Positions 508 to 63,006 of a DNA stretch of 64,000 nucleotides are shown piece by piece; positions within the stretch are counted from its first letter, which is position 1; each line of letters starts with the position of its first letter. A program made the position numbers and the translations under genes. This DNA comes from Cryobacterium lactosi. Its GTDB lineage: Bacteria; Actinomycetota; Actinomycetes; Actinomycetales; Microbacteriaceae. The stretch is from assembly GCF_004403945.1 (NCBI RefSeq), contig NZ_SOHM01000034.1:62001-126000 (forward strand). The letters run 5' to 3'. A model generated the notes under the pieces. That model was not told where the DNA came from. It was given only the letters and a program-made list of their open reading frames with translations, and made no database searches.

Positions 508-551
508 TGTCGCGTATCCCATGGGTGTCGACACACGGAGGTTACGAGACA
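508..551 (+). repeat. R1, 44-bp recombination-site-like repeat
   Basis: Left half-site TGTCGCGTATCCCA, right half-site TGGGTGTCGACACA (centre A/T), 4-bp spacer CGGA, third half-site GGTTACGAGACA. The outer ends form an inverted repeat (TGTCNCGTA with TACGAGACA). It has the same orientation and spacing as R3 to R7. It separates the small gene at 272-469 from the agmatinase. Confidence 0.85.
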
Positions 552-678
552 AGAGCGAAGTGCCGACTGTCGTTATATTCCCCGCAAGAGGAACCCTTTG
601 CGGACGGTGTTAGCCGACTGCACCCATTCTTGCTGCGGGATCGATTCCCGGTGGCCATCCGTTTTCAGAGCCGATTGG

Positions 679-1650
679 TTAGAGGCCGAAATGCTCTTTG
701 TCATATGCCATGAGTGAGAGCACTTCCCAGGCGGTGTGTGCCGCCACTAGTCCTGTCAAAGCTGCGTGGTCGTAGGCTGGCGCCACTTCTACGATGTCCG
801 CACCCAGGATCCCAATGCCAGTCAGCCCTCGAAGGGTGGCGAATAACTCTCGGGTGGAGAGTCCGGCGACTTCCGGTGTGCCGGTAGCTGGCGCATGGGC
901 CGGGTCGAGGACGTCGATATCGATGGAGATGTAGATCGGTCCACCCTCAACACGATTGCGGATGCGCTCGACGATCGTCGCCGCTCCGTCTGTTTCGTAA
1001 TCGTCAGCGCGGATGATCTGGAATCCCAGCACTCCGTCGGCTTCAAGTTCGTCCTTGTCGTAGACACCACCCCGGAGCCCAACGTGGATGCATCTTTCGA
1101 GATCCAGCAGCCCTTCCTCGGCTGCGCGTCTAAACGGCGATCCGTGCCAGATCGGAGCTCCGAAATGCGTGTCCCAGGTGTCTAGGTGGGCATCAAAGTG
1201 GATGACGCCGACAGGCCCGTTCTTCTTGGCAACCGCCCGAAGCAAGGGGAGAGCGATCGTGTGGTCTCCGCCAAGCGTGACCAGTCGAATCCCTTGTTCC
1301 GCGTACTCGTCCGCCGACTTCTCAATCGATGCCACCGCCGCCTCGATGCTGTACGGGGTGACTCCGAGGTCACCGGCGTCAACGACCTGATTTACCTTGA
1401 ACGGGTACACGTCGTGAGTCTGGTGATAAGGGTGAAGTTGCCGGGAGGCTTCGCGAATGTGGTTCGGTCCGAAGCGCGCGCCGGGCCGAAAACTGGTGCC
1501 GGCGTCAAACGGAATGCCCAGTACTGCCACGTCCGCCCGTCGAACGTCTTCGATACGCGGAAGGAGGGCGAACGTCGCGAGACCCGCATAGCGCGGGTAG
1601 TCAGGGATGTCGCGCTGGCCTATGGGAACGCTCTTCGCTGAGTCAGACAT
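679..1650 (-). CDS. speB: Agmatinase / ureohydrolase family
   Basis: Binuclear-manganese ureohydrolase that would hydrolyse agmatine to putrescine and urea in the cytosol. The 323 residues carry the three family signatures: GGDHT (127-131), HFDAHLDT (151-158) and SIDIDVLDP (242-250). These supply the expected metal ligands H130, D153, H155, D157, D244 and D246. The pocket segment GTSFRPGARFGP is also present. Length is normal. The minus-strand start has TAGCGT seven nt upstream, which suggests a leaderless transcript. The gene sits alone between repeats R1 and R2 with small ORFs. Related ureohydrolases act on guanidinobutyrate, guanidine or proclavaminate, so the substrate is inferred. A putrescine-type aminotransferase/dehydrogenase pair lies near 50 kb. 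Confidence 0.85.
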   Translation of the reverse strand: MSDSAKSVPIGQRDIPDYPRYAGLATFALLPRIEDVRRADVAVLGIPFDAGTSFRPGARFGPNHIREASRQLHPYHQTHDVYPFKVNQVVDAGDLGVTPYSIEAAVASIEKSADEYAEQGIRLVTLGGDHTIALPLLRAVAKKNGPVGVIHFDAHLDTWDTHFGAPIWHGSPFRRAAEEGLLDLERCIHVGLRGGVYDKDELEADGVLGFQIIRADDYETDGAATIVERIRNRVEGGPIYISIDIDVLDPAHAPATGTPEVAGLSTRELFATLRGLTGIGILGADIVEVAPAYDHAALTGLVAAHTAWEVLSLMAYDKEHFGL

Positions 1651-1657
1651 GTGGACG

Positions 1658-1663
1658 ACGCTA
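1658..1663 (-). promoter_or_regulatory. Putative -10 of agmatinase gene (leaderless)
   Basis: Minus-strand hexamer TAGCGT, 7 nt before the ATG at 1650. No convincing -35 was found. Confidence 0.3.
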
Positions 1664-1817
1664 CCAACAAGAAGGCGCGTGGGCCCGAATGCCGGAGGGT
1701 GGCAGGTCGTCAGCGGTCGAGCCTGGCGAGACCTTGGGAAGCTACTACCTCATCACGGCGAAGACCTAGATGGGCGACCGGCACTGCGAAGGGAGCCCCT
1801 ATGAACTCCAGAGTCAG

Positions 1818-2033
1818 CTACTGCCTCGATTGCGCTGAGAGCTCTTTCCAGTTCGGTCGAACCTGCCATGCCACGAAGGCACTCGCTGCAAGGAATGCAC
1901 CAAGCGCGGCCGGGATCCAGGGCTGAATGGAGGCATCCGGACCAAGGCTGGCGGGCAGGACCAATATCAGAGTGGCAGCAGATGCAACCACAAGGATGAA
2001 GAAAACAAGAAACCGCGGAACAGATCGTTTCAT
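1818..2033 (-). CDS. Small membrane protein (71 aa)
   Basis: Unrecognised. It starts MKRSVPR, followed by two hydrophobic segments at about residues 8-28 (FLVFFILVVASAATLILVL) and 40-58 (IPAALGAFLAASAFVAW), and ends in a polar tail (RPNWKELSAQSRQ). The positive N-terminus and hairpin topology suggest a two-helix inner-membrane protein. It is codirectional with the agmatinase but 167 bp away, with no shared signal visible. No homologue is known to me. Confidence 0.45.
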   Translation of the reverse strand: MKRSVPRFLVFFILVVASAATLILVLPASLGPDASIQPWIPAALGAFLAASAFVAWQVRPNWKELSAQSRQ

Positions 2034-2149
2034 CGTGCCACCACCCTAGTCGAGCAGCCGATAACGGCTGGGATAGAGACACTACCTACGAGTGCGATCC
2101 CGCCGATGCACGCGGCGCAGACGATAGCGGTCGGAGGCGGATTGGGCCC

Positions 2150-2290
2150 GTGCCGATCGGCCTCCTTGTGCCCATCGTCACACCGGTAGCTGACGTCGCC
2201 ATCTTGAACGTCATCGCCTGGCAGGCGGATGCCCTCATCATCGTGCTCGCTGCGGCGGGCGCGTTGACCGTGCTCCACGCCACCGGCGCA
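2150..2290 (+). pseudogene. Diverged copy B of the small membrane protein at 272
   Basis: The segment around 2195-2287 encodes AILNVIAWQADALIIVL, then AAAGALTVLHAT, almost identical to copy A at protein level. The DNA differs mainly at synonymous positions (for example gtgattgcc against gtcatcgcc). After HAT the similarity stops. The frame runs on into an Arg/Pro-rich stretch without the second hydrophobic helix, so this copy looks truncated or recombined. The upstream part (from a GTG at 2150) also differs from copy A. It is either a remnant or a chimeric small gene. Confidence 0.45.
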
Positions 2291-2536
2291 CAGCCGACCC
2301 GTTCCCCGCGCCCGCCGGCACCTCCCAGCGCGCTGTGCCGCTGGGAGTGCCGGGGCCGCCCCGTCATGGCGGCGCGGACGTGTCTGCCAGGCTGGCGAGC
2401 CCGGTCAAAGTGTGAGCGCGACGGCGCGCGGTTAAGTGTGGCCGGACGGCTCACCGTCAATGCAGGCCGGAGCGTCGCAGCAAAAGGATGAGAGCTGGAA
2501 GCGCCTTAGGAGGCATGGTGAGCTGAGCGTCCTCGC
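2291..2536. other. No gene seen
   Basis: Reading frames here are short, arginine-rich and lack a ribosome-binding site. No repeat of the R family was found. Confidence 0.4.
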
Positions 2537-2857
2537 TCAGACGAGCTTCGCGTTGAAGCGAGCTGCTCTAGCTTCGCGTGCCTGGTGGATTCGACGCCGG
2601 ATCGGGAAGCAAATGACCAGGTCGATGAGCCAGATCAGTGGATGAAACAGGAGGAGAACGACAGTGCCTTGAATCCCAGCATAGGAGTCATCGTTGCCCC
2701 AGCCGGTCGCGTTGAATGGCACACGAGGGGTGAGCGGAGCAACGGTCCTCACGCTAGCCGCAGTCAGCGGGCCGGGCACCCAGGTGCGACGGACCAGGTC
2801 GCGGTGGGCACGCTTCTGTGTGCGGATGTCTCGGCGGATCTGGGGTTGAGTCTTCAT
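2537..2857 (-). CDS. Hypothetical protein with one membrane segment (106 aa)
   Basis: Unrecognised. From the preferred ATG at 2857 it begins MKTQPQIRRDIRTQKRAHRD, a highly basic N-terminus. A hydrophobic segment follows at about residues 63-86 (TVVLLLFHPLIWLIDLV) and then a basic C-terminal helix (RRRIHQAREARAARF). An in-frame ATG at 2887 would add ten residues. Neither start has a strong ribosome-binding site. The charge pattern suggests a membrane-anchored protein with basic flanks. It is the last gene before the R2/R3 pair. Confidence 0.4.
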   Translation of the reverse strand: MKTQPQIRRDIRTQKRAHRDLVRRTWVPGPLTAASVRTVAPLTPRVPFNATGWGNDDSYAGIQGTVVLLLFHPLIWLIDLVICFPIRRRIHQAREARAARFNAKLV

Positions 2858-3059
2858 GTCACTCACATGTGCGTTTAGAGAGCTCATCTTAGTCGGACAA
2901 CCGCCAGCGCTGTCCGGGCTCCGATGACGATGGTGGTGCCCGCCGGCGCCGCAGTGAAGCCCGCCGATCGCATTCGATCCGTGAAGAGCAGGGCCATCAA
3001 GACGGAGGTTCCACGCACCGCACATGAACGCGAGTCAACCGGGAAAAGCGTCTAGCCAC

Positions 3060-3104
3060 CGTCTCGTATCCCGACCGATACGAGACACGGCTGGATGCGA
3101 GACA
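3060..3104 (+). repeat. R2, 45-bp recombination-site-like repeat
   Basis: Palindromic core with arms GTCTCGTATC and GATACGAGAC around CCGACC, then a 5-bp spacer and a third half-site GGATGCGAGACA (3093-3104). The centre is G/A rather than A/T and there is no CCATGG. It lies 39 bp upstream of R3 and may act as the accessory subsite of a composite R2+R3 site. Confidence 0.8.
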
Positions 3105-3143
3105 AGTCGCCCTTCACTTGCTCGTAAACGGGAGAGGTTTCCG

Positions 3144-3187
3144 TGTCTCGTATCCCATGGGATATGAGGCACTTCGGTTACAAGACA
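3144..3187 (+). repeat. R3, 44-bp recombination-site-like repeat
   Basis: The copy closest to the apparent consensus: TGTCTCGTATCCCA, TGGGATATGAGGCA, spacer CTTC, GGTTACAAGACA. It lies 38 bp beyond the stop of the S66 peptidase gene. Confidence 0.88.
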
Positions 3188-3225
3188 CGTTGGAGTGTGG
3201 CTCTCCGCGTGACGGCGGCAGCGGG

Positions 3226-4254
3226 TTATGGCACGAGGTGCTGGGTGATGCGGCCACGTCCTTCGATCAGCTCGATCTCAGCAAGGGCACCGTTGACGAG
3301 CGGCATCTGCGGCGGCTGATGGCCAATATCGAAATCTACGATGATTGGAATGCCCAGATCCCCTAGCGCTCTCTCTATCGCGCCGAGTTGAGTGAGACCG
3401 TCAACTGCGGGGGCGGTCGTGCGTCCAATTAGAACTCCTGTGGCGTGTGTGAACCATCCGGCTAAGCGCAACGACCAGAGCATGCGCAGCACGGTCGAAG
3501 CTTCTGCACCCGCCACTTCAAGGTAAACGATTATGCCCTCGGGGGCATGGCGCTCTGCAAAGGCAGAAACGTCCCCGAAAGGTGAGCCTGCGAGCAGCGA
3601 GACAGTTTCCAGACATCCTCCGATGAGGCGACCACGCATTTGTGACGTGCGGTCATTGTCCAGCGTCCGCCAGTTAGTTGTCGTTTCGTAGGCTGCATCG
3701 CGGGTCAGCGGCTCGTCCGCCCAAGCACCCCACGGCCGTGACCTCCGTCGCGGCGCCGAGAACTGTGTGAAAGACGTCCCCACTGACATGGATGCCACTT
3801 CGGTCCACCGTCGGAATTCTTTTGGCAACTCCCACGGCTCGTCCATCAGGTTTGCCCCGTGGAGGGTCGCGACACCTGTGGTGATCGTGAGTGGCATGAG
3901 CAGCGTGGCAATGTCTGACCAGCCGACGAACCATTTGGGGTCGGCGGCGAGTGCCGACCAGTCAAGATCCTCTACGAGCTCTACCGCCAGCTCGCCGCCC
4001 CACGGAGGAAGTATCGCACGGGCCGGCCCGGCGAACGCAGCGCTCAACTCCGATCGCCGTTCGGTGGCCGGAGCGGGCACGAGACCGCCACGCCGGGCGA
4101 GTTTTCCTACGACCACGGTGAAGCCTCGTGCTTCGAGGTCGTGCGCCCCTCGGTCAAGTCTCGGGTGCATGTCCGCAGGAACCCCCATTGAAGGGGCTGG
4201 CACAGAAATCTGATCGCCAGGTGAGAGAGCACGCGGATATCGCACGTTGGTCAT
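3226..4254 (-). CDS. S66-family serine peptidase (LD-carboxypeptidase / MccF-like)
   Basis: 342 residues, the usual length for peptidase family S66, which includes LD-carboxypeptidases of peptidoglycan recycling and MccF-type microcin C immunity proteins. The nucleophile motif is GWSD with Ser113. The other triad members are probably Glu246 (IIVYLEVAGAE) and His312 (FDIGHQPPQMPLVNG). The N-terminal LSPGDQISVPAPS segment also fits. No signal peptide, so cytoplasmic. Minus-strand TAGAGT lies six nt before the ATG, so the mRNA may be leaderless. It is the only gene between R3 and R4. An MccF-like self-protection role is an inference from the family and cannot be told from cell-wall recycling by sequence alone. 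Confidence 0.85.
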   Translation of the reverse strand: MTNVRYPRALSPGDQISVPAPSMGVPADMHPRLDRGAHDLEARGFTVVVGKLARRGGLVPAPATERRSELSAAFAGPARAILPPWGGELAVELVEDLDWSALAADPKWFVGWSDIATLLMPLTITTGVATLHGANLMDEPWELPKEFRRWTEVASMSVGTSFTQFSAPRRRSRPWGAWADEPLTRDAAYETTTNWRTLDNDRTSQMRGRLIGGCLETVSLLAGSPFGDVSAFAERHAPEGIIVYLEVAGAEASTVLRMLWSLRLAGWFTHATGVLIGRTTAPAVDGLTQLGAIERALGDLGIPIIVDFDIGHQPPQMPLVNGALAEIELIEGRGRITQHLVP

Positions 4255-4260
4255 CGGCCA

Positions 4261-4266
4261 ACTCTA
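4261..4266 (-). promoter_or_regulatory. Putative -10 of the S66 peptidase gene (leaderless)
   Basis: Minus-strand TAGAGT exactly 6 nt before the ATG at 4254. The -35 region is weak. Confidence 0.35.
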
Positions 4267-4386
4267 GCGAGCAGCCGACGTCGCGAAGTCGGGTTGGAGA
4301 GTGAAAGCACTGGCGGGGTGATCGACGGGAATACCTGGTGACTCGCAGCCCTACCGGTCGCGCGCAGGGCCTGCCTCGCGTCTTCG

Positions 4387-4430
4387 CGTCTCGTATCCCA
4401 TCGGTTTCGACACGCTGAGGTTTCGAGACA
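4387..4430 (+). repeat. R4, 44-bp recombination-site-like repeat
   Basis: CGTCTCGTATCCCA, TCGGTTTCGACACG, spacer CTGA, GGTTTCGAGACA. The right half-site is diverged but the spacing is intact. It falls inside the 3' part of a minus-strand frame that begins near 4762, so the repeat marks the break of that frame. Confidence 0.83.
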
Positions 4431-4762
4431 GAGCTCACAAACCAATCGGACCGCACGTGGCGAGCTGGGCTGAAGCCTATCCAGGTGAGCAGTGTGCCTA
4501 TATCTCGAGCCGACTCCCAACACTTCGTAAGCGTCGAAGGGTAAGCGAACGGGGCACGCGGGTGCCTTTTGGCGCTTGGGCGGCGTTCAGTGAACGATAG
4601 TCGGCACCTGTCCCAGGCCGCTCCGAGCGTGGCGCGATCGTCTAGTTCGGCGATGGCTTGGTGGAGTAGAGTTCGTTCCGCCTCACTCATGTCGACCCGA
4701 TCAAAGAAAGGCCTGATATTGGGCGTTGAAGTGAGTGTCGATGACGTCATCCGACTGTTCAA
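4431..4762 (-). pseudogene. Truncated ORF remnant ending in R4
   Basis: A frame starting at 4762 (or at an in-frame ATG at 4690) reads plausible protein for about 75 residues, including FFDRVDMSEAERTLLHQAI and ELDDRATLGAAWDR. It then runs into repeat R4 and continues as arginine- and serine-rich junk overlapping the S66 promoter. The N-terminal part looks helical and acidic, like a real protein. Its original C-terminus is missing, as expected if a recombination event at R4 replaced it. No family recognised. Confidence 0.3.
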
Positions 4763-4791
4763 GGGCGAGGGGAACCTGTCAAGTCAACGCC

Positions 4792-5430
4792 TCAGGAGTC
4801 AGTCTGTTCGAACTTTAGTATCTGGACTGTTGCATCGCCGTTTTTACGTATGCTCGCGACAAGGGCTGCGATGCCAAGCCCGAACGTACCCGCTAGATTA
4901 CCCAGGTATCCCAGCAGGATCACGTAATCGGTAGATGCCGGCAGATCGGCACCGAGTGCAACTCCTAATACACCTTGGAAGAAGTATCCAGCTGCAGCGA
5001 TCGCGAGAACCCAAAGCGGCGCCCATTGCCACGGTTGCGGAACTACTCCGGCGCGTACAATCTGGACCGCGGCGATTGTCGCAGATGCAAGGCGGACAGT
5101 AATGTCAACATTTGCGAAACCGCCTGCACCCATTGGCGCAACAAGTCCGATGAGTTGTATCAAGAGCGGCCAGACGCCAAATACCAGCATCGCGGTCATT
5201 CCGAGAGGCCGGCGATCGACGACGCTGGCTCGGGGGTGCAGGCCGAACGCAAACAAAAGAACTGCGATTAGATATGTGAAGCACGCCAGTGTTTGAAGAA
5301 ATGTCGACGCCCCCAAGAACGCTGATGACAGTAAGCCCAGCACCCCAGTAAGAATGAGGGCAGAGCCTCCCAATATCCAGGTGGTGCGCGTTGCCGTCAT
5401 CTGAGCCGACCGTTCTGAGACGTTGGGCAT
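4792..5430 (-). CDS. Hypothetical polytopic membrane protein (212 aa)
   Basis: Six hydrophobic segments can be drawn, near residues 17-39, 44-64, 76-97, 107-128, 138-162 and 168-192. They include LQTLACFTYLIAVLLFAFGL and VFGVWPLLIQLIGLV. The C-terminal tail is polar. The start at 5430 is supported by AAGGTGG five nt upstream on the minus strand. No catalytic or transport motif is visible, so no function is proposed. It is the only intact gene between R4 and R5, and base use is less GC-biased than in core genes of this window. Confidence 0.6.
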   Translation of the reverse strand: MPNVSERSAQMTATRTTWILGGSALILTGVLGLLSSAFLGASTFLQTLACFTYLIAVLLFAFGLHPRASVVDRRPLGMTAMLVFGVWPLLIQLIGLVAPMGAGGFANVDITVRLASATIAAVQIVRAGVVPQPWQWAPLWVLAIAAAGYFFQGVLGVALGADLPASTDYVILLGYLGNLAGTFGLGIAALVASIRKNGDATVQILKFEQTDS

Positions 5431-5813
5431 TTTTCCACCTTCAAGGCCGGGAGAAGGCTGGCGGGCATCGTTGGCGTTCGAAGCAGGCCCCCAAGGCCTA
5501 ATGCCTGCTGTTCATGAGAACCAAACTGCTCGTCGCCGGGAATGGGTTCGGCAATACCGAGGTTTGCGCCTGGGCGAGCACTTCCGTGTTGATTCTACCC
5601 ACGTACAGCTTCGTCATGCTGGCTCCAGCCTCGAGGTTGGCGATTAATGGAGTCTGGCTCCTCATCGTTCTTACTCACCAACTGAACCTAACTTGGAGCG
5701 ATTCCGCCGCCCACAGGACGCCGATGGACCTGATCAAGGCAGACCTTCGGCGCTTGTCGCACACATGACTAATGACGGTGTTCGCGCTAGGGCAGTGTGC
5801 CTGGAAAACGTGC
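5431..5813. other. No convincing gene
   Basis: Only short frames occur. A 39-codon minus-strand frame (5617 to 5498) and an 84-codon plus frame from 5514 overlap. Neither has codon bias, a good ribosome-binding site or a known family. Confidence 0.4.
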
Positions 5814-5842
5814 GGATGCGAGACAGGTCCAGATACGCGACA
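5814..5842 (+). repeat. Pair of isolated R-type half-sites upstream of R5
   Basis: GGATGCGAGACA (5814-5825) and GATACGCGACA (5832-5842) in tandem, the second ending 40 bp before R5. GGATGCGAGACA is identical to the third half-site of R2, which ends 39 bp before R3. The spacing is thus shared by two loci. Confidence 0.55.
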
Positions 5843-5882
5843 GGTCAACGTGCCGTGCGTTGCGTCAGCGGGCGATTTCTTA

Positions 5883-5926
5883 CGCCTTGTATCCCATGGG
5901 ATACGAGGCATCCCGGTTACGAGACA
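5883..5926 (+). repeat. R5, 44-bp recombination-site-like repeat
   Basis: CGCCTTGTATCCCA, TGGGATACGAGGCA, spacer TCCC, GGTTACGAGACA. It contains the perfect 16-bp palindrome GTATCCCATGGGATAC. It lies upstream of the RidA pseudogene. Confidence 0.87.
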
Positions 5927-6031
5927 CATCCCCAGTCGCGCGCGCATTTCAGCCGGCGGCTTAGTGAGTTTCGACCTGACGCGACTGTTACTAGGTTCAC
6001 CTCTTCGCTGTTCACGCGACGAGTCCTCAAA

Positions 6032-6037
6032 TAGGTT
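6032..6037 (+). promoter_or_regulatory. Putative -10 of the RidA-family pseudogene
   Basis: TAGGTT six nt before the ATG at 6044, the leaderless spacing seen elsewhere in the window. Confidence 0.3.
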
Positions 6038-6043
6038 GAGTGC

Positions 6044-6452
6044 ATGTCCCAAGCAGTGTCCCTTATTCGCTCAGCTGACCTTTCCGACGTTGCACAGTAT
6101 GCCTACGCCGCAACCGCTCCCGCCGAAGCGCGCCTCATCTTCTTGGCCGATGCCTGCCCGCTGGACCTCGATGGCAGCGTGGTCGGAGTCGGAGACTACG
6201 TCGCGCAGGCCGGCAAGGCCATGGAGAACCTCCGTATCGCCCTGAAGGCGGCAGGAGCCCAACTCGATGACGTAGTGAACACCCGTGTCCTCGTGGCATC
6301 CTCGAGGTAAAGTGACCTCGTCGACGCGTGGGCGGTCGTTCGAGAGGCGTTCGGCCAACACGATGTACCGAGCACGCTCATGGGAGTCACCGTACTCGGC
6401 TACACGGATCAGCTTTGTCGAGATCGAAGCTGTGGCCACCGTAATCGACTGA
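6044..6452 (+). pseudogene. RidA/YjgF-family protein, broken by a stop and a frameshift
   Basis: RidA-family proteins are small trimeric enzymes; the best known deaminate reactive enamine/imine intermediates. The frame begins MSQAVSLIRSADLSDVAQYA and contains the family pattern QAGKAMENLRIALKAAGA and DDVVNTRVLVASS. A TAA at 6308-6310 then interrupts it. The same frame continues as SDLVDAWAVVREAFGQHDVP and STLMGVTVLGYTDQL, clearly RidA C-terminal sequence. One extra T near 6415 then shifts the frame; without it the gene would read VEIEAVATVID and stop at 6450-6452. Two independent lesions make this a pseudogene in an otherwise full-length gene. It is the sole gene between R5 and R6. Confidence 0.8.
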
Positions 6453-6488
6453 AGTCGTCCCAAGCGGCACCTGACCACGGCGCAACGC

Positions 6489-6532
6489 AGTCGCATAACT
6501 CATGGGATATGAGGCACATGGGTTTCGAGACA
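6489..6532 (+). repeat. R6, 44-bp recombination-site-like repeat
   Basis: AGTCGCATAACTCA, TGGGATATGAGGCA, spacer CATG, GGTTTCGAGACA. Its left half shares GTCGCATAAC with the half-site upstream of the recombinase gene (9582-9593). Confidence 0.85.
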
Positions 6533-6681
6533 TCCGAAGGACGGAGAGAAACAAAAGCTCACCGTTGGCTTTGGTCGATAGCTCTCACGGCTTTTGAAAG
6601 CGGAGGTTGCACCTCAACTCCAGTTCCATCGACGTCGTCTGCTAGTTTTCTCGCACGAGGCAACGGGGTGGGAGAGCGCTG

Positions 6682-7137
6682 ATGATGAGGCATCAAGGCA
6701 GAACTGGACGAATTTGGATTTCAACAGGACTCGTCCTTCTATCCCTTTTGGCAATGTCGGGTTGTACGACAGATGATGCCACCTCTCAAGTCCGATCGTT
6801 TCTTGCTACAGACGCTGGTCCTGAGGACGCCCTGCCACCGGACGCTGTAGCGGACGGGCTAGATGCGGAATCAAGCCGGCAGGTTGGAACAAAAGGGGAC
6901 GTGACGTATTACGTCGCCGATTTCAAGGACCCGCGAACCGGTGCCGCGGGCGTGTGCATAGTCCTCATCAGTGAGATCGCTCAGTTCTCCAATTCCGCGT
7001 GTGGATCGGCCGTTGGCATGCGAACTACCGGCAGCGAAACCGGGGGTGCAGAGATCGTTCAGAAGGGTGATGAAACACCGGACGGGTGGGTTCGACTAAG
7101 TGATTTCCTCATTGTGAACCCTGACGCCAAGAACTAG
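6682..7137 (+). CDS. Putative lipoprotein (151 aa)
   Basis: A lipoprotein signal peptide is visible: basic N-terminus (MMRHQGRTGRIW), hydrophobic core (TGLVLLSLLAM) and lipobox AMSGC, with the modified Cys near residue 28. The mature part is acidic (TTDDATSQVR), with no recognised domain. The surface-exposed remainder has two cysteines (GVCIVL, NSACGS) that could pair. Two ATG codons in tandem (6682, 6685) follow GGGAGAG at a usable distance. It is upstream of, and separated by a hairpin from, the sigma-factor pair, and shares the R6-R7 cassette with it. Function unknown. Confidence 0.65.
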   Translation: MMRHQGRTGRIWISTGLVLLSLLAMSGCTTDDATSQVRSFLATDAGPEDALPPDAVADGLDAESSRQVGTKGDVTYYVADFKDPRTGAAGVCIVLISEIAQFSNSACGSAVGMRTTGSETGGAEIVQKGDETPDGWVRLSDFLIVNPDAKN

Positions 7138-7169
7138 CCCTTTTCGGGCTTCCAATGCCCCCTTCCTCA

Positions 7170-7204
7170 ACGCCACCGTTCTCGTTAAAGGAACGGAGTG
7201 GCGT
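7170..7204 (+). terminator. Hairpin downstream of the lipoprotein gene
   Basis: Outer arms ACGCCAC/GTGGCGT and inner arms CGTTC/GAACG around a 9-nt loop, with a 2-nt bulge. There is no U-tract, so it may be a weak or bidirectional terminator or an mRNA 3'-end structure. A smaller AGCCC/GGGCT hairpin precedes it at about 7136-7150. Confidence 0.4.
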
Positions 7205-7293
7205 GGGAATGTGCCCCCAGGGCGATTTCCGTGCCTTTGCCCAGATACTTGCGTCGAGCAAGCGGACTAAATTTTGGCGACATACGGCTGTGC

Positions 7294-7305
7294 TGGACAT
7301 GTCCA
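7294..7305 (+). promoter_or_regulatory. Perfect 12-bp palindrome before the sigma-factor operon
   Basis: TGGACATGTCCA, about 20 bp before the AGAGGA ribosome-binding site of the gene at 7337. The position fits an operator or promoter element. No binding protein is known. Confidence 0.35.
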
Positions 7306-7336
7306 TTAGTAAGAGCCTGATCGAGAGGAACTAGCC

Positions 7337-8002
7337 ATGGACAATCTCACCGATGCCGAGCAAGACGCGTTGGATTCGGCGTTAGATCGCTCGAGGGCGA
7401 TGCTTACAGAACCGGACGACCTGCACACTGAGGTCCAGACGATGCTTCACCAGTTGGAGGATCTCCCTCAAGGTCACAGGGCTCGCACTGGTCGGATGCG
7501 CCGCGTGGTCTCGGTCTTCGCGCTGAGCGCCCTACTGGTCGGCGGCGGTGTCAGTGCGGCGGCAGCGTCTGGTCTGTGGTCGTGGTGGGCGGACGACCCA
7601 GATCTCTCATACGAGTTCACCCTTCCTTCTGGCGCCAGCTGCGAAGTCCGCTATGGGCTGATGTCGACCAACCCCGGGACCGCGCCAGTAGACAGCACGA
7701 ATCTCGATGCAGGACTCGCTGAATGGCTGACCACCAACGACGTTCTCTCGCTTGCTGACGTGGCCGGCGCCGTGACGGCGTTAAAGACAGGCGAAGTAGA
7801 GTTCTTCGCCGTGCACTTTGACGACGACGGCACCGTGACCAAGGAAGCTGTGCGTCCCGATGAGAGCCTGGACGCCGACAAGTTTTACGCTACCGCGGTG
7901 GAATACGCTGTCGCCGAGGTAATTAACCTGGAAGTAGCTGCGCGCCATCTACCGGGCATCGCCTACGGCACCGAAAGCGCGTGCGGCGGAGTCATACAGT
8001 GA
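7337..8002 (+). CDS. Membrane protein coupled to an ECF sigma factor; putative anti-sigma partner
   Basis: 221 residues. An acidic, probably cytoplasmic N-terminal part of about 55 residues comes first, then a transmembrane segment near 58-75 (VVSVFALSALLVGGGVSAAA). An extracytoplasmic domain follows with two cysteines (ASCEVRYG and SACGGVIQ). No ZAS zinc motif (HxxxCxxC) is seen. Its stop overlaps the GTG start of the sigma factor gene (GTGA), so translation is coupled. That, and the anti-sigma-like topology, suggests the sigma factor's partner, but the order is the reverse of the usual sigma-first layout. The start is supported by AGAGGA. Anti-sigma function is inferred only from context. 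Confidence 0.6.
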   Translation: MDNLTDAEQDALDSALDRSRAMLTEPDDLHTEVQTMLHQLEDLPQGHRARTGRMRRVVSVFALSALLVGGGVSAAAASGLWSWWADDPDLSYEFTLPSGASCEVRYGLMSTNPGTAPVDSTNLDAGLAEWLTTNDVLSLADVAGAVTALKTGEVEFFAVHFDDDGTVTKEAVRPDESLDADKFYATAVEYAVAEVINLEVAARHLPGIAYGTESACGGVIQ

Positions 8003-8511
8003 CACAGTCTGCTCGACACCTGACCGAAGTTTTAGAGCGAGAGTCGGCAGATTTGCTGCGCTACTTTCGTCGCCGTGTCGCCCTGGAGGACGCTGCTGAC
8101 CTGCTGGCGGAGACCGGTATGACTGCCTGGCGTCGAGCGGATGACCTCCCCTCTGATAGTGAGGGAGCGCGTCGGTGGCTGTTCACTGTCGCACGCAACA
8201 CCTTCCTCAACTATCAGCGTGGGCAGCAACGACGACTGGCGCTCGCTAGCCGTGTACGTGCAGTCCTGACCCGCGCGGATCATGTCTCTCCGTCCGCGGA
8301 TGACGGGATAGAAGTGCGCGACGCGATCAGTCGACTGCCTCCTGAGCTAGCGGAACTCGTCCGACTCATTCATTGGGACGGGTTCACCATCGCTGAAGCT
8401 GCTGAGATCATCGGCATGTCGGATACGACCGCGCGGACGCGATATCAGCGCGCCCGCGCTGAACTGCGCGCGACGCTGTCGGCAACAATCAACACCAAGT
8501 CGTCAATCTGA
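7999..8511 (+). CDS. ECF-type RNA polymerase sigma factor
   Basis: 170 residues from a GTG overlapping the upstream stop, in place of an in-frame ATG at 7981 inside the upstream gene. Region 2 spans about residues 12-80 (LLRYFRRRV, DAADLLAETGMTAWRRADDL, RRWLFTVARNTFLNYQRGQQ). Region 4 spans about 105-157 (AISRLPPELAELVRLIHWDG, then helix-turn-helix FTIAEAAEIIGMSDTTARTR). This is the standard minimal ECF layout: it would guide RNA polymerase to a small regulon, often including its own promoter. Translational coupling to the membrane protein at 7337 points to a membrane-signal-controlled pair. Confidence 0.85.
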   Translation: MTQSARHLTEVLERESADLLRYFRRRVALEDAADLLAETGMTAWRRADDLPSDSEGARRWLFTVARNTFLNYQRGQQRRLALASRVRAVLTRADHVSPSADDGIEVRDAISRLPPELAELVRLIHWDGFTIAEAAEIIGMSDTTARTRYQRARAELRATLSATINTKSSI

Positions 8512-8655
8512 TGCGATTCGGTAGCGGCGACAATTTGAAGGTCGGATGAGGGCTGGTTGGGAGGAAGCGGGCGGATCACCCACACCGCCAGCCCTGGATC
8601 GTCGCGTTCCGGTCTCTACCACCTGCCAGGCGTCGAGTTGGAAGGCGATCTCCTT

Positions 8656-8700
8656 GGCCTCGTATCCCATGGGGGTCTGAGGCACTTCGGTTACAAGGCG
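8656..8700 (+). repeat. R7, 45-bp recombination-site-like repeat
   Basis: GGCCTCGTATCCCA, TGGGGGTCTGAGGCA (one extra base), spacer CTTC, GGTTACAAGGCG. It is the most degenerate third half-site in the set, but the layout is unmistakable. It lies between the convergent sigma-factor and lipoprotein genes. Confidence 0.8.
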
Positions 8701-8756
8701 CGCACGTGGATGGGTGGGTTGCCGCTCCCTACATGAGTGTTCGGAGATGGGCCTTA

Positions 8757-9209
8757 TTAGCCTCGAGGCGGGGTGAGCGTTCGTACCGTGCCAGGACCTA
8801 GATCCACCGTGATGTCTGAGGCAGGATCGAGGCCAGGCGGTGGACGGAGTTCATATGTCTGAGCAGACATGTCTGCCGTGCAGAAGAACCCACCTGTCTG
8901 CTCGATCTCGACCTCAAGCTCTGTTGGTGAAGTGACCTCTACCGACGTCGGCGCATTTGGGCACGAGGAGCTCCCGAAGGTCACCAGGGCTAAGCCCTCG
9001 CCCCTTTCAATCCAATAAATCGCCGGGTCCCAGTCGACAAAGTCACCAGGCCAGACCTCCACGGGGCTGCCTCGATAGGTGGTCTCGTAGACTCTGGTAC
9101 CCGAGCAGGCGACTAGCCCTCCAAGAACAAGCACGAACCCCAGTCCTAAGAACGTCAGGATGGCATGTCTACGAAACGGTCGATCTGGACGGACAGTCTT
9201 CGTTCGCAT
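8757..9209 (-). CDS. Putative lipoprotein (150 aa)
   Basis: From the ATG at 9209 the product starts MRTKTVRPDRPFRRHAILTF. A hydrophobic core (LGLGFVLVLGGL) and a lipobox ending LVAC follow, with the lipid-modified Cys near residue 34. The mature part contains VYETTYRGSPVEVWPGDFVD and FGSSSCPNAPTSVEV, and may form a small beta domain. Another ATG at 9221 would add four residues; GGGG six nt upstream favours 9209. The frame stays open much further upstream, but that part lacks signal-peptide logic. No family recognised. It is the only gene between R7 and R8. Confidence 0.6.
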   Translation of the reverse strand: MRTKTVRPDRPFRRHAILTFLGLGFVLVLGGLVACSGTRVYETTYRGSPVEVWPGDFVDWDPAIYWIERGEGLALVTFGSSSCPNAPTSVEVTSPTELEVEIEQTGGFFCTADMSAQTYELRPPPGLDPASDITVDLGPGTVRTLTPPRG

Positions 9210-9485
9210 CGCTTGCCCCATCCCCTCGGCCCATACGTATTCCGAACCATAACGGGTTCCCTCTAATTTCGACCCGAAGTTGCCGAGATGCCGCCCATCG
9301 CCAACGGCATGGTCCCACGACCGAAGCCGCTCAATCACTGAAAATGTCATTGATAGCCCCGTGGTGCAACCTGCGTAGCCCAGGTGTCCTCCGCGCGGAC
9401 CAGTGCCTTCTTTCAGGTCGCCTGAACAACCGAAATAGAGGGGCACGTCATTCGCTAAGGGCGTCAAGGACGCCTGTCATTCATG
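9210..9485. other. No gene seen
   Basis: The upstream extension of the lipoprotein frame and an opposite-strand frame both read as unstructured Arg/Gly-rich sequence. No R-type repeat until R8. Confidence 0.4.
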
Positions 9486-9529
9486 TGTCTCGAAACCCTA
9501 CGGATATGAGACGTCTCACGGCTGTGACC
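9486..9529 (+). repeat. R8, 28-bp core site next to the recombinase gene
   Basis: TGTCTCGAAACCCT and ACGGATATGAGACG form the 28-bp core (9486-9513, centre T/A). The third half-site position (ACGGCTGTGACC, 9518-9529) is degenerate. Position upstream of a resolvase-type gene matches where res sites usually lie. Confidence 0.75.
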
Positions 9530-9581
9530 GGCAGTTTCTCAGATCCCCGGTGATTTCCCGAGTCAGCGATTCGCACAACTA

Positions 9582-9633
9582 CGTCGCATAACGTTCTTCC
9601 TGGATTACAGTGCGCATCGTTAGTTATGAGACA
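9582..9633 (+). promoter_or_regulatory. Inverted half-sites flanking the recombinase promoter
   Basis: CGTCGCATAACG (9582-9593) and GTTATGAGACA (9623-9633) are inverted copies of the R half-site (TGTCTCGTAAC type). They lie on either side of a promoter-like TACAGT (9607-9612) and end 13 bp before the GTG start. This resembles res subsites II/III, through which resolvases repress their own gene. Confidence 0.6.
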
Positions 9634-9646
9634 ACGGAGGAGTGCC

Positions 9647-10276
9647 GTGATCAAGCTGATCGGCTACGCGCGAATTTCGGTTCGGCAGCAAGCTGCGGAC
9701 GGACAGCGGGCCGAGCTTCTAGCGGCGGGTGTGCGGCGTGACGACCTATATATCGATGAGGGGAGTTCCGGCGCTCGTGCAGGTCGGCCTCAGCTTGACC
9801 TCGCACTCACTGCGCTTGAGCCTGGCGACACATTCGTGATCGCGACCTTGGATCGGCTGGGTCAGTCGACGCAGAACGTTATTGCGCTCGCCGAGAGGCT
9901 TAGCGGCCGCGGCGTTGAACTTCGTGTTCTCGATCTGGGCGGCGGAGAGGTTGACACCGCGACACCGACGGGAGCCATGCTGTTCACGGTTATGGCTGCT
10001 CTCGGGCAGATGGAACACGACATCAAGCGTGAGCGCGTGCTCGACTCGATCGATAGACGCCGAAAGGCCGGCAAGAACCTGGGTGGCCGTCCACGAAGAA
10101 TCACCAACCGACAGATCCGGAACGCCAACAAACTCATTGAAGCCGGAGAACCAACGGCACAGGTTGCACGCGACTTCGGAATGTCCCGCGCTACGTTCTA
10201 CCGCCGGGCCCGCGCGCTGGGACTGATGCCAGATCAAGCTGGTGACGAGACCTCGGAAAGCGAGGGTGCTAGCTGA
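9647..10276 (+). CDS. Small serine recombinase (resolvase/invertase family)
   Basis: 209 residues from a GTG with GGAGGAG just upstream; an earlier ATG at 9626 lies before that ribosome-binding site. The N-terminal catalytic domain has GYARIS with nucleophile Ser11, then IATLDRLGQSTQNV, and the long E-helix region AALGQMEHDIKRERVLDSID. The C-terminal DNA-binding part is GGRPRRITNRQIRNANKLI with the helix-turn-helix VARDFGMSRATFYRRARAL. This is the Tn3/gamma-delta resolvase layout, not a large serine integrase. No transposase gene accompanies it. It lies between R8 and the tRNA-Arg gene, and its promoter is flanked by the same half-sites as R1-R8, so it is the natural candidate to act on those repeats. 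Confidence 0.9.
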   Translation: MIKLIGYARISVRQQAADGQRAELLAAGVRRDDLYIDEGSSGARAGRPQLDLALTALEPGDTFVIATLDRLGQSTQNVIALAERLSGRGVELRVLDLGGGEVDTATPTGAMLFTVMAALGQMEHDIKRERVLDSIDRRRKAGKNLGGRPRRITNRQIRNANKLIEAGEPTAQVARDFGMSRATFYRRARALGLMPDQAGDETSESEGAS

Positions 10277-10347: not shown

Positions 10348-10351
10348 AGAG

Positions 10352-10423
10352 TGCCCCCAGGCAGATTCGAACTGCCGCCCCTGCCTCCGGAGGGCAGTGC
10401 TCTATCCCCTGAGCTATGGGGGC
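10352..10423 (-). tRNA. tRNA-Arg (CCG)
   Basis: A 72-nt cloverleaf can be folded by hand. The acceptor stem is GCCCCCA/TGGGGGC with discriminator A, the D stem GCTC/GAGC, and the anticodon stem CTGCC/GGCAG with loop CTCCGGA (anticodon CCG, reading CGG). The variable loop has 4 nt and the T arm is GGCAG-TTCGAAT-CTGCC. CCA is not encoded. The 3' end faces the accessory region, the usual orientation for tRNA-targeted islands. Confidence 0.93.
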
Positions 10424-61966: not shown

Positions 61967-63006
61967 CACTGACCCCCGATCGCGTGAGCCCCGGTCAGCC
62001 CGGCGCGCGACGCGACGCCGACCTGATGAGCATCGAAGAGGCCGGCCAGTTCGCGACCCTGTTCGACCGGCTGGTGCGCGGCGTCGAGGAGGTCGTCCTC
62101 GGCAAACAGCACGTGATCAGGTTGGCGTTCACCGCCCTGTTCAGCCAGGGCCACCTGCTCCTGGAGGATGTGCCCGGCACCGGGAAGACCTCGCTGGCCC
62201 GCGCGATCGCACAGAGCGTGCGCGGCACCAACAACCGGGTGCAATTCACCCCGGACCTGCTGCCCGGCGACATCACCGGTGTGAGCATCTTCGACCAGCG
62301 CACCGCGACCTTCGAATTCCACCGCGGGCCGGTGTTCGCCAACATCGTGCTGGCCGATGAGATCAACCGCGCCAGCCCCAAGACTCAGGCGGCGCTGCTG
62401 GAGGTCATGGAGGAGGGCCAGGTCACCGCCGACGGCGTCACCCACAAGGTCGCCGGCCCGTTCATGGTGATCGCCACCCAGAACCCGATCGAGCAGGCCG
62501 GCACCTACAGGCTGCCGGAGGCCCAACTGGACAGGTTCCTGATGAAGACGTCGATCGGGTACCCGGACCAGGCCGCCACCGTGCGGATACTGGAGGGCGC
62601 CGGCCGGCGGGCCCACGACAGCACGGTGGCGGCGGTGCTCTCGGCCGAGTCCGTCGTCGAGGTAGCGGCGCTGGCCCGCACCGTGTTCGTCGACGCGACC
62701 ATCAACGACTACGTCGCAAGGCTCGTGGATGCCACCCGCAACAGCCCCGAGGTGCGCCTGGGCGCCAGCGTGCGCGGCGCCCTCGCGCTCATCCGCACGG
62801 CCAAGACCTATGCGGCATCCCAGGGCCGTCACTACGTCACCCCCGACGACGTGAAGGCCCTCGCCGAGCCCGTGCTCGCGCACCGGCTGCTGCTGGACGC
62901 CGAAGCCGAATTCGACGGGGTCAGCGCCTCGAGCGTGATCGGCCGAATCCTGGTCGAGACGCCGCCGCCGCGGAGCGGACAGGACCAGCGGGCGGATGTC
63001 CTCTAG
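61963..63006 (+). CDS. MoxR-family AAA+ ATPase
   Basis: 347 residues; ATGA overlap with the giant gene. Walker A EDVPGTGKTSLARAIA (GTGKT at 72-76), sensor and pore region TPDLLPGDITGVSIFDQR, Walker B NIVLADEINRASPKTQAALL, and sensor 1 VIATQNPIEQAGTYRLPEAQ. The C-terminal lid has LGASVRGALALIRTAK. MoxR ATPases act as chaperone-like remodellers for client proteins, often paired with VWA or DUF58 partners; the DUF58 gene starts 10 bases before its stop. Confidence 0.95.
   Translation: MTLTPDRVSPGQPGARRDADLMSIEEAGQFATLFDRLVRGVEEVVLGKQHVIRLAFTALFSQGHLLLEDVPGTGKTSLARAIAQSVRGTNNRVQFTPDLLPGDITGVSIFDQRTATFEFHRGPVFANIVLADEINRASPKTQAALLEVMEEGQVTADGVTHKVAGPFMVIATQNPIEQAGTYRLPEAQLDRFLMKTSIGYPDQAATVRILEGAGRRAHDSTVAAVLSAESVVEVAALARTVFVDATINDYVARLVDATRNSPEVRLGASVRGALALIRTAKTYAASQGRHYVTPDDVKALAEPVLAHRLLLDAEAEFDGVSASSVIGRILVETPPPRSGQDQRADVL

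Follow-up and report, generated by a model that had tools for sequence, protein, structure and literature searches.

The window, a stretch of 64,000 nucleotides of Cryobacterium lactosi (contig NZ_SOHM01000034.1, from position 62,001), holds a row of short dyad-containing repeats, R1 to R8, that are separated by mostly unrelated genes and end before a gene for a small serine recombinase near a tRNA-Arg gene (Table 1). A sequence-only reading had described the repeats as one element in eight copies, with genes between successive copies. All eight are real: they were found where that reading had placed them, in the orientation it had described, and with a third half-site in seven of the eight, as it had counted. 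They belong, however, to three site types, here called A, B and P; R1 and R3-R7 are type A, R2 is type B, and R8 is P. Genes do lie in the other intervals, but R2 and R3 enclose none and form a paired B+A site. Similarly, the dyad of R8 is genuine but has no adjacent third half-site, and is the platform dyad before the recombinase gene rather than an ordinary member of the array. A degenerate type B site upstream of R5 had been missed, and the array extends beyond the left edge of the window, where a further A site lies some 2.25 kb ahead of its first base (L009:11745-11789; genomes, contigs and loci carry working labels of this kind).

Table 1. Features of the array and its platform, in window coordinates
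Feature	Position	Strand	Evidence or remarks
R1, type A	508..551	+	dyad centre AT, 4-nt spacer, third half-site
Arginase/agmatinase-family gene, cargo of R1-R2	679..1650	-	Pfam PF00491, 5.5e-90
R2, type B	3060..3104	+	paired with R3, centres 84 bp apart; centre here GA
R3, type A	3144..3187	+	site matrix
S66 peptidase cassette, R3 centre to R4 centre	3158..4401	+	gene 3226-4254 (-), Pfam
R4, type A	4387..4430	+	site matrix
Membrane-protein gene, cargo of R4-R5	4792..5430	-	open reading frame (ORF); no Pfam match over cut-off
Degenerate type B	5798..5842	+	centre 85 bp upstream of R5 centre
R5, type A	5883..5926	+	site matrix
RidA cassette, R5 centre to R6 centre	5897..6503	+	RidA-type ORF 6044-6310
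R6, type A	6489..6532	+	site matrix
Lipoprotein cassette	6503..7236	+	ORF 6682-7137; right-hand site missing here
Hypothetical protein (7337-8002) and extracytoplasmic function (ECF) sigma factor (7981-8511), cargo of R6-R7	7337..8511	+	ORFs, Pfam
R7, type A with 1-nt insertion in right half	8656..8700	+	site matrix
Putative lipoprotein-like ORF, cargo of R7-platform	8757..9467	-	ORF; no Pfam match
R8, platform dyad P, centre TA	9486..9513	+	aligned in related loci
Two head-to-tail accessory half-sites of the platform	9569..9593	+	about +70 and +84 from P centre; alignment
Inverted accessory half-site of the platform	9622..9633	+	alignment
Small serine recombinase	9647..10276	+	Pfam Resolvase PF00239 1.4e-30, HTH_7 PF02796 1.5e-8; homologues
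tRNA-Arg(CCG), marker of the conserved locus	10351..10423	-	recurs downstream in related loci

Site types and the joints between cassettes

The 28-bp cores of the eight elements score 20-41 bits on a matrix of their own, whereas nothing in five shuffled 64-kb windows exceeds 15.0. A refined matrix, built on related loci, gave no site above 20 bits on a single shuffled sequence of 569,322 bases, and was used to collect comparison sites from 26 stretches; one genome per species was compared. Type A has the dyad consensus CGTCTCGTATCCCATGGGTTATGAGGCA with the centre AT, a 4-nt spacer, and the third half-site GGTTACGAGACA, while type B has the dyad TGTCTCGTAACCCTACCGATGCGAGACA with a centre that is normally TA, a 5-nt spacer, and the third half-site AGATGCGAGACA. 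A search at spacings of 60-110 bp yielded 25 B-A pairs, with centres 80-86 bp apart in 23 of them and 91 and 93 bp apart in the rest; the spacing is about eight helical turns. When paired sites (78-95 bp) are classed by position alone, the centre is TA in 22/25 upstream members and AT in 24/25 downstream members. The centre of the platform dyad is TA in 16/16 loci, three of which are near-identical and seven of which were placed by a TA-favouring pattern.

Identity between homologous cassettes of different arrays begins or ends at the dyad centre (25 pairs). This analysis covered 109 A sites; it excluded three pairs whose junction agrees on both sides, and some pairs share a site. Among the 15 pairs that share their right flank (11 cassette families), mean identity is 0.90-0.94 in the right dyad half and 0.85 at +30 to +60, and only 0.69-0.73 in the left dyad half and 0.28 farther left, which is the level of 1500 random site pairs (0.72-0.76 in the dyad half, 0.28 in the flank). 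In the ten pairs that share their left flank (eight families), identity is 0.82-0.89 in the left half and 0.82 in the left flank, falling to 0.63-0.70 in the right half and 0.30 far to the right. The best single joint is a recombinant site in genome G031, whose left flank (30/31) and left half (14/14) match genome G024 and whose right half (14/14) and right flank (35/36) match contig C41 of the window's own genome; the switch lies inside a shared 8-bp CCCATGGG. Three other three-way joints are concordant and less sharp. Across the arrays, 46 of 181 alignment ends fall within 20 bp of a site centre, where 6.9 are expected and 2000 circular shifts gave at most 20, with the reservation that the 181 ends come from 47 alignments and are not all independent. 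The platform takes part in such sharing as well: the flank to the left of P at the second locus of N22 is that of a B site in G004 (94%), and its counterpart in Cryobacterium sp. 1639 is that of a B site in G024 (83%). On this comparative evidence, cassettes of different species have been joined at dyad centres.

Ordinary homologous recombination between short dispersed repeats might produce mosaics of this kind, since the sites are repeated and related and some cassettes are duplicated within G007. However, the repeats are only about 44 bp long and diverged (76% mean column identity), and the switch, both on average and at the sharpest joint, falls on the dyad centre rather than at a random point of the repeat, which makes this explanation very unlikely. 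Breaks of homology at dyad centres already contradict a second proposal, that the dyads serve as operators or bind other regulators. Intergenic dyads are typical of regulators, and the platform half-sites may autoregulate the recombinase, but the sites cluster in arrays and 70/72 of them point to the recombinase in the eight arrays with a recombinase-bearing platform (R2 counted, G031 excluded); the proposal has almost no probability left. Ends of insertion sequences (IS), miniature inverted-repeat transposable elements or transposons were rejected as well, because the segments between sites are mostly unrelated genes with no constant unit. A phage origin found no support, as all 109 phage records fall below 60% identity, and among the matches listed lie at 34-39%.

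Several window cassettes occur elsewhere. The RidA cassette (R5-R6) is present in G002 at 89% identity with both ends at sites and in G459 at 87% with its left end at a site, each time among other neighbours, and a cassette of G467 that lies between two A sites matches the lipoprotein segment 6501-7236 at 93% identity. In keeping with the exchange of genes between sites that the sequence-only reading had proposed, the stretch shared between species runs, for some genes, from one dyad centre to the next. In three of the many RidA relatives, L124-L126, which lack sites, the match is limited to the gene itself; this points to capture of a chromosomal gene. In the window, a stop ends the RidA-type ORF early (88 aa) while DNA homology continues to 6452, and the cassette may carry a broken gene. 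The S66 gene has relatives on a plasmid of Cryobacterium sp. LW097 (93%) and in G015 (88%); identity starts at the dyad, and an IS-like end stands in place of the left dyad half. Next to the S66 gene, these IS-like ends fall precisely on the dyad centre (L107:5840-7200; L113; L108:6756-7995) and resemble the end of an annotated IS30-family element in L108. IS30 has target preference, and IS30-like elements may target these palindromes. Additionally, a short coding-like fragment flanks the agmatinase gene on both sides (292-380 and 2197-2285, 85% identity) and recurs beside a cassette site in G467 (L120:2291-2395).

Distribution of sites and array cargo

The sequence-only reading had named repeats spread genome-wide as one outcome that would speak against it. 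In a genome scan with a model from 23 sites, which scored 150/628 candidates including those 23, the full sites of the 4.66-Mb genome were confined to four clusters, namely C29 (the window array), C22, the end of C36, and C41, with weak partial matches elsewhere in C44 and C43. On this clustering among the scored candidates, a genome-wide intergenic repeat was rejected. In Cryobacterium, a soil bacterium, ten of 57 genomes carry a close recombinase (at least 81% identity), and these hold 7-38 sites each at E<=1e-5 (26, 25, 8, 7, 11, 38, 9, 17, 10, and 19), compared with 0-5 sites in the 47 genomes without one (rank test, p=2e-7); stricter search filters make all of these counts lower bounds. 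Any recombinase relative at E<=1e-40 is found in 33/57. In a 60-genome sample, 28 genomes matched at E<=1e-5, 27/37 within the genus and 1/23 outside it, and across the family a site at E<=1e-7 occurs in 23/398 sampled genomes and 10/85 genera, with 15 candidates scored per genome. For instance, G207, from another genus, has eight A sites pointing one way and a whole platform with no recombinase match behind it, and is by its layout an orphan array.

That site number tracks a serine recombinase also bears on whether the dyads could be Xer tyrosine recombinase sites and the arrays modules of the dif type known from Acinetobacter. Since Xer should be present in all genomes, this pattern counts against such an origin, as do the third half-sites, the dyad before the serine recombinase gene and the similarity to Tn3 res site I described below. 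An Xer origin is accordingly held to be highly improbable, even though the 28-bp site is readable as 11-6-11 and single adaptive genes are likewise bordered by dif-type modules (PMC6449649).

In G007, the largest array begins at 9,286 of a 76-kb stretch, reaches P at 65,250 (about 56 kb), and has 24 A sites, all towards the recombinase, with segments of 183 to 11,844 bp between sites. Cargo genes lie in both directions. Among 30 cargo proteins of G007, 18 have a Pfam match and 12 have none at 1e-4; the matches include ECF sigma factors, a CD-NTase (SMODS), a GntR regulator, hydrolases, a PadR/ABC set, and several transposases, and a possible nucleotidyltransferase lies beside a helix-turn-helix (HTH) protein. 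The CD-NTase-like gene (SMODS, of the type found in cyclic-oligonucleotide-based antiphage signalling systems, CBASS) is at L054:4496-5476. PADLOC, run over 48 cargo proteins, matched one with its cyclase models (5e-102) and one each with mad2 and mad3. A 1,269-bp segment occurs twice at 100% identity in the G007 array (L053:14628-15896, L055:17892-19160), each copy having one end 13 bp away from the centre of a TA dyad, and is perhaps a recent IS copy.

Platform, recombinase and proposed mechanism

Dyad P lies about 127 bp before an in-frame ATG at 9626, but the recombinase probably starts at GTG 9647, because the conserved part of its homologues begins there. P is followed by two head-to-tail half-sites and then by an inverted half-site next to the gene, an arrangement that aligns in related loci. 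Across the 16 loci in which P was aligned (three near-identical), the left flank varies between species and the right side is conserved; the ruanii, gelidum, and Y82 loci are near-identical throughout, and the P dyad of L062 was unrecognised in this alignment. The close recombinase is present at ten Cryobacterium loci (the window, L056, L057, L059, L060, L062, and L073-L076), and the window protein has relatives at 80-86% identity in named Cryobacterium scaffolds. A tRNA-Arg(CCG) gene lies downstream on the opposite strand in all ten, at 29-87 bp in six and 1.6-4.4 kb in four. The comparison at the tRNA-Arg locus that the earlier reading had proposed gave a conserved platform with a left flank that differs between the arrays of different species. 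The L060 recombinase has a stop near its C-terminal end. A second platform in the window's genome (L010:9558-9709) ends the C22 array with no recombinase ORF behind it, and G000 contigs C19, C41, and C44 hold more recombinase copies at 65-77% identity, some with stops.

The protein consists of a Resolvase catalytic domain and a C-terminal HTH (Pfam), which fits the small serine recombinase family, and its solved structural relatives are DNA-invertase (4m6f, 3uj3), gamma-delta, Tn3, and Sin. The array is very probably a chromosomal gene-cassette platform, integron-like in its working and run by this recombinase. The proposal that the repeats are recombinase sites and the genes cassettes, with which the sequence-only reading began, is supported by the joints at dyad centres and by a site number that tracks the recombinase clade.

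In the proposed mechanism, the recombinase gene near tRNA-Arg would stand behind its own res-like platform, P plus accessory half-sites, with a stack of cassettes across P from it. Each of these would comprise one or a few genes and a site, made of a type-A dyad with its third half-site and often a type-B dyad eight helical turns upstream. The enzyme would cut the 2-bp centre of paired dyads, AT with AT and TA with TA, and such cutting at matched centres would lead to excision of a cassette or to its joining to another A, another B, or P. We infer that this serine recombinase made the joints and may still be active, that circles are the mobile form of the cassettes, and that P is where new ones enter. 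Recombination by serine recombinases requires matching centres, and this rule fits the AT and TA site classes. For serine integrases, control by the central dinucleotide is cited in PMC3783163.

Several observations weigh against a recombinase-run platform. Joint positions are resolved to about 8-10 bp, 135/181 alignment ends fall away from sites, up to 5 sites also occur in genomes that lack the close recombinase, and the two sites of the G031 platform stretch point away from the recombinase. Additionally, a recombinase of the Arg71 type (74%) together with a P dyad ends a four-site array in G459 (L146), and the link to one recombinase clade is therefore not exclusive. Arg71, which according to PMC4499144 is proposed to contact the scissile phosphate, is replaced by Gln, Lys, or Met in 10/10 aligned array-clade sequences, one of which is a broken second copy in N22, and is retained in 23/23 other aligned relatives.

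The replacement of Arg71, and the presence of Arg71-type copies in the same genomes, one of them ending that array, favour the view that the activity is fossil or borrowed: an ancestor shuffled the cassettes, or Arg71-keeping relatives do so, and the array-clade protein is a weakened enzyme or a site-binding repressor. However, the array clade keeps the active-site residues Ser10, Arg8, Asp67, and Arg68, purifying selection acts on its genes (dN/dS 0.10-0.38 across 36 pairs from nine genes), and the presence of at least seven sites goes with the array clade and not with the Arg71 type. A fossil or borrowed activity is thus considered unlikely, if the most serious of the alternatives to a platform run by the array-clade recombinase.

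Integrons are the textbook machine for gene capture and reshuffling, and a comparable array that relies on an unrelated enzyme would show that platforms of this kind can arise more than once. If the proposed platform is real, it would equip actinobacteria with their own means of gene capture and provide a compact cassette tool based on a serine recombinase; its cargo includes many genes without a known function, along with ECF sigma factors and a CBASS-like nucleotidyltransferase. The sequence-only reading knew of no described system with such a layout, and no report of a serine-recombinase cassette array was found among the papers listed in a search of part of the literature, which lacks most subscription journals and preprints.

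Relation to resolvases, dif modules and integrons

Sin and the Tn3 and gamma-delta res systems share the enzyme family and the 28-bp dyad. A Sin-type res has a site I cut at its centre and a site II with head-to-tail half-sites, like the accessory half-sites of the platform (PMC2428073), and dyad length and AT centre are those of Tn3 res site I (PMC4499144), whose score on the dyad matrix was equalled by 1 of 20,000 of its shuffles. The 28-bp dyad with exchange at its centre that is expected of a serine recombinase is what the comparative joints indicate. In contrast to the array, where tens of dyads separate cargo, Sin, Tn3, and gamma-delta resolve dimers or cointegrates at one site.

Closer relatives are found on plasmids of Arthrobacter, Kocuria, Clavibacter, Sinomonas, and others: at least 27 records hold recombinases of the same subfamily, at 60-80% identity among the matches listed, and those aligned keep Arg71, unlike the array clade. 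A platform-like dyad precedes the gene in 7/8 plasmid regions; in the eighth (Arthrobacter alpinus, L108), an annotated IS30-family transposase gene replaces the P dyad. No cassette array was seen in the eight regions, three of which hold one or two A-like sites. A plasmid res system is therefore a plausible ancestor, as judged from these relatives. A broader reading, to which we lean only slightly, would make the system a second, independently evolved integron, in which a plasmid-type resolvase and its res site became a chromosomal, cassette-capturing platform. Its two-dyad sites would provide AT and TA as separate joining channels, cassette to cassette and cassette to platform, and loss of the active-site arginine would perhaps make excision slower and stabilise large arrays.

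Among other known systems, the dif modules of Acinetobacter come closest to a cassette array (PMC6449649). These dif/pdif modules (XerC/XerD) likewise place single adaptive genes between 28-bp recombinase sites, but they rely on tyrosine enzymes encoded elsewhere and on a dimer-resolution site, whereas the arrays have a dedicated serine recombinase, a platform of their own, and long one-way rows of sites.

Functional integrons, as described in PMC8618304, use the tyrosine recombinase IntI and attC x attI recombination. Like chromosomal integrons, the arrays hold diverse cassettes running one way beside a single recombinase gene and a platform site, with exchange at one site per cassette and with orphan arrays that lack the enzyme (here G207). 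Their platform site is conserved on one side and variable on the cassette side, and site-bounded cassettes are common to different arrays. However, the platform gene encodes a serine resolvase-family protein rather than a tyrosine IntI, for which a search of this genome (TIGR02249) gave eight matches and none over the cut-off. Cargo, moreover, lies in both directions, and in place of attC there are double-stranded dyad sites of resolvase type. The system works like an integron and is not one.

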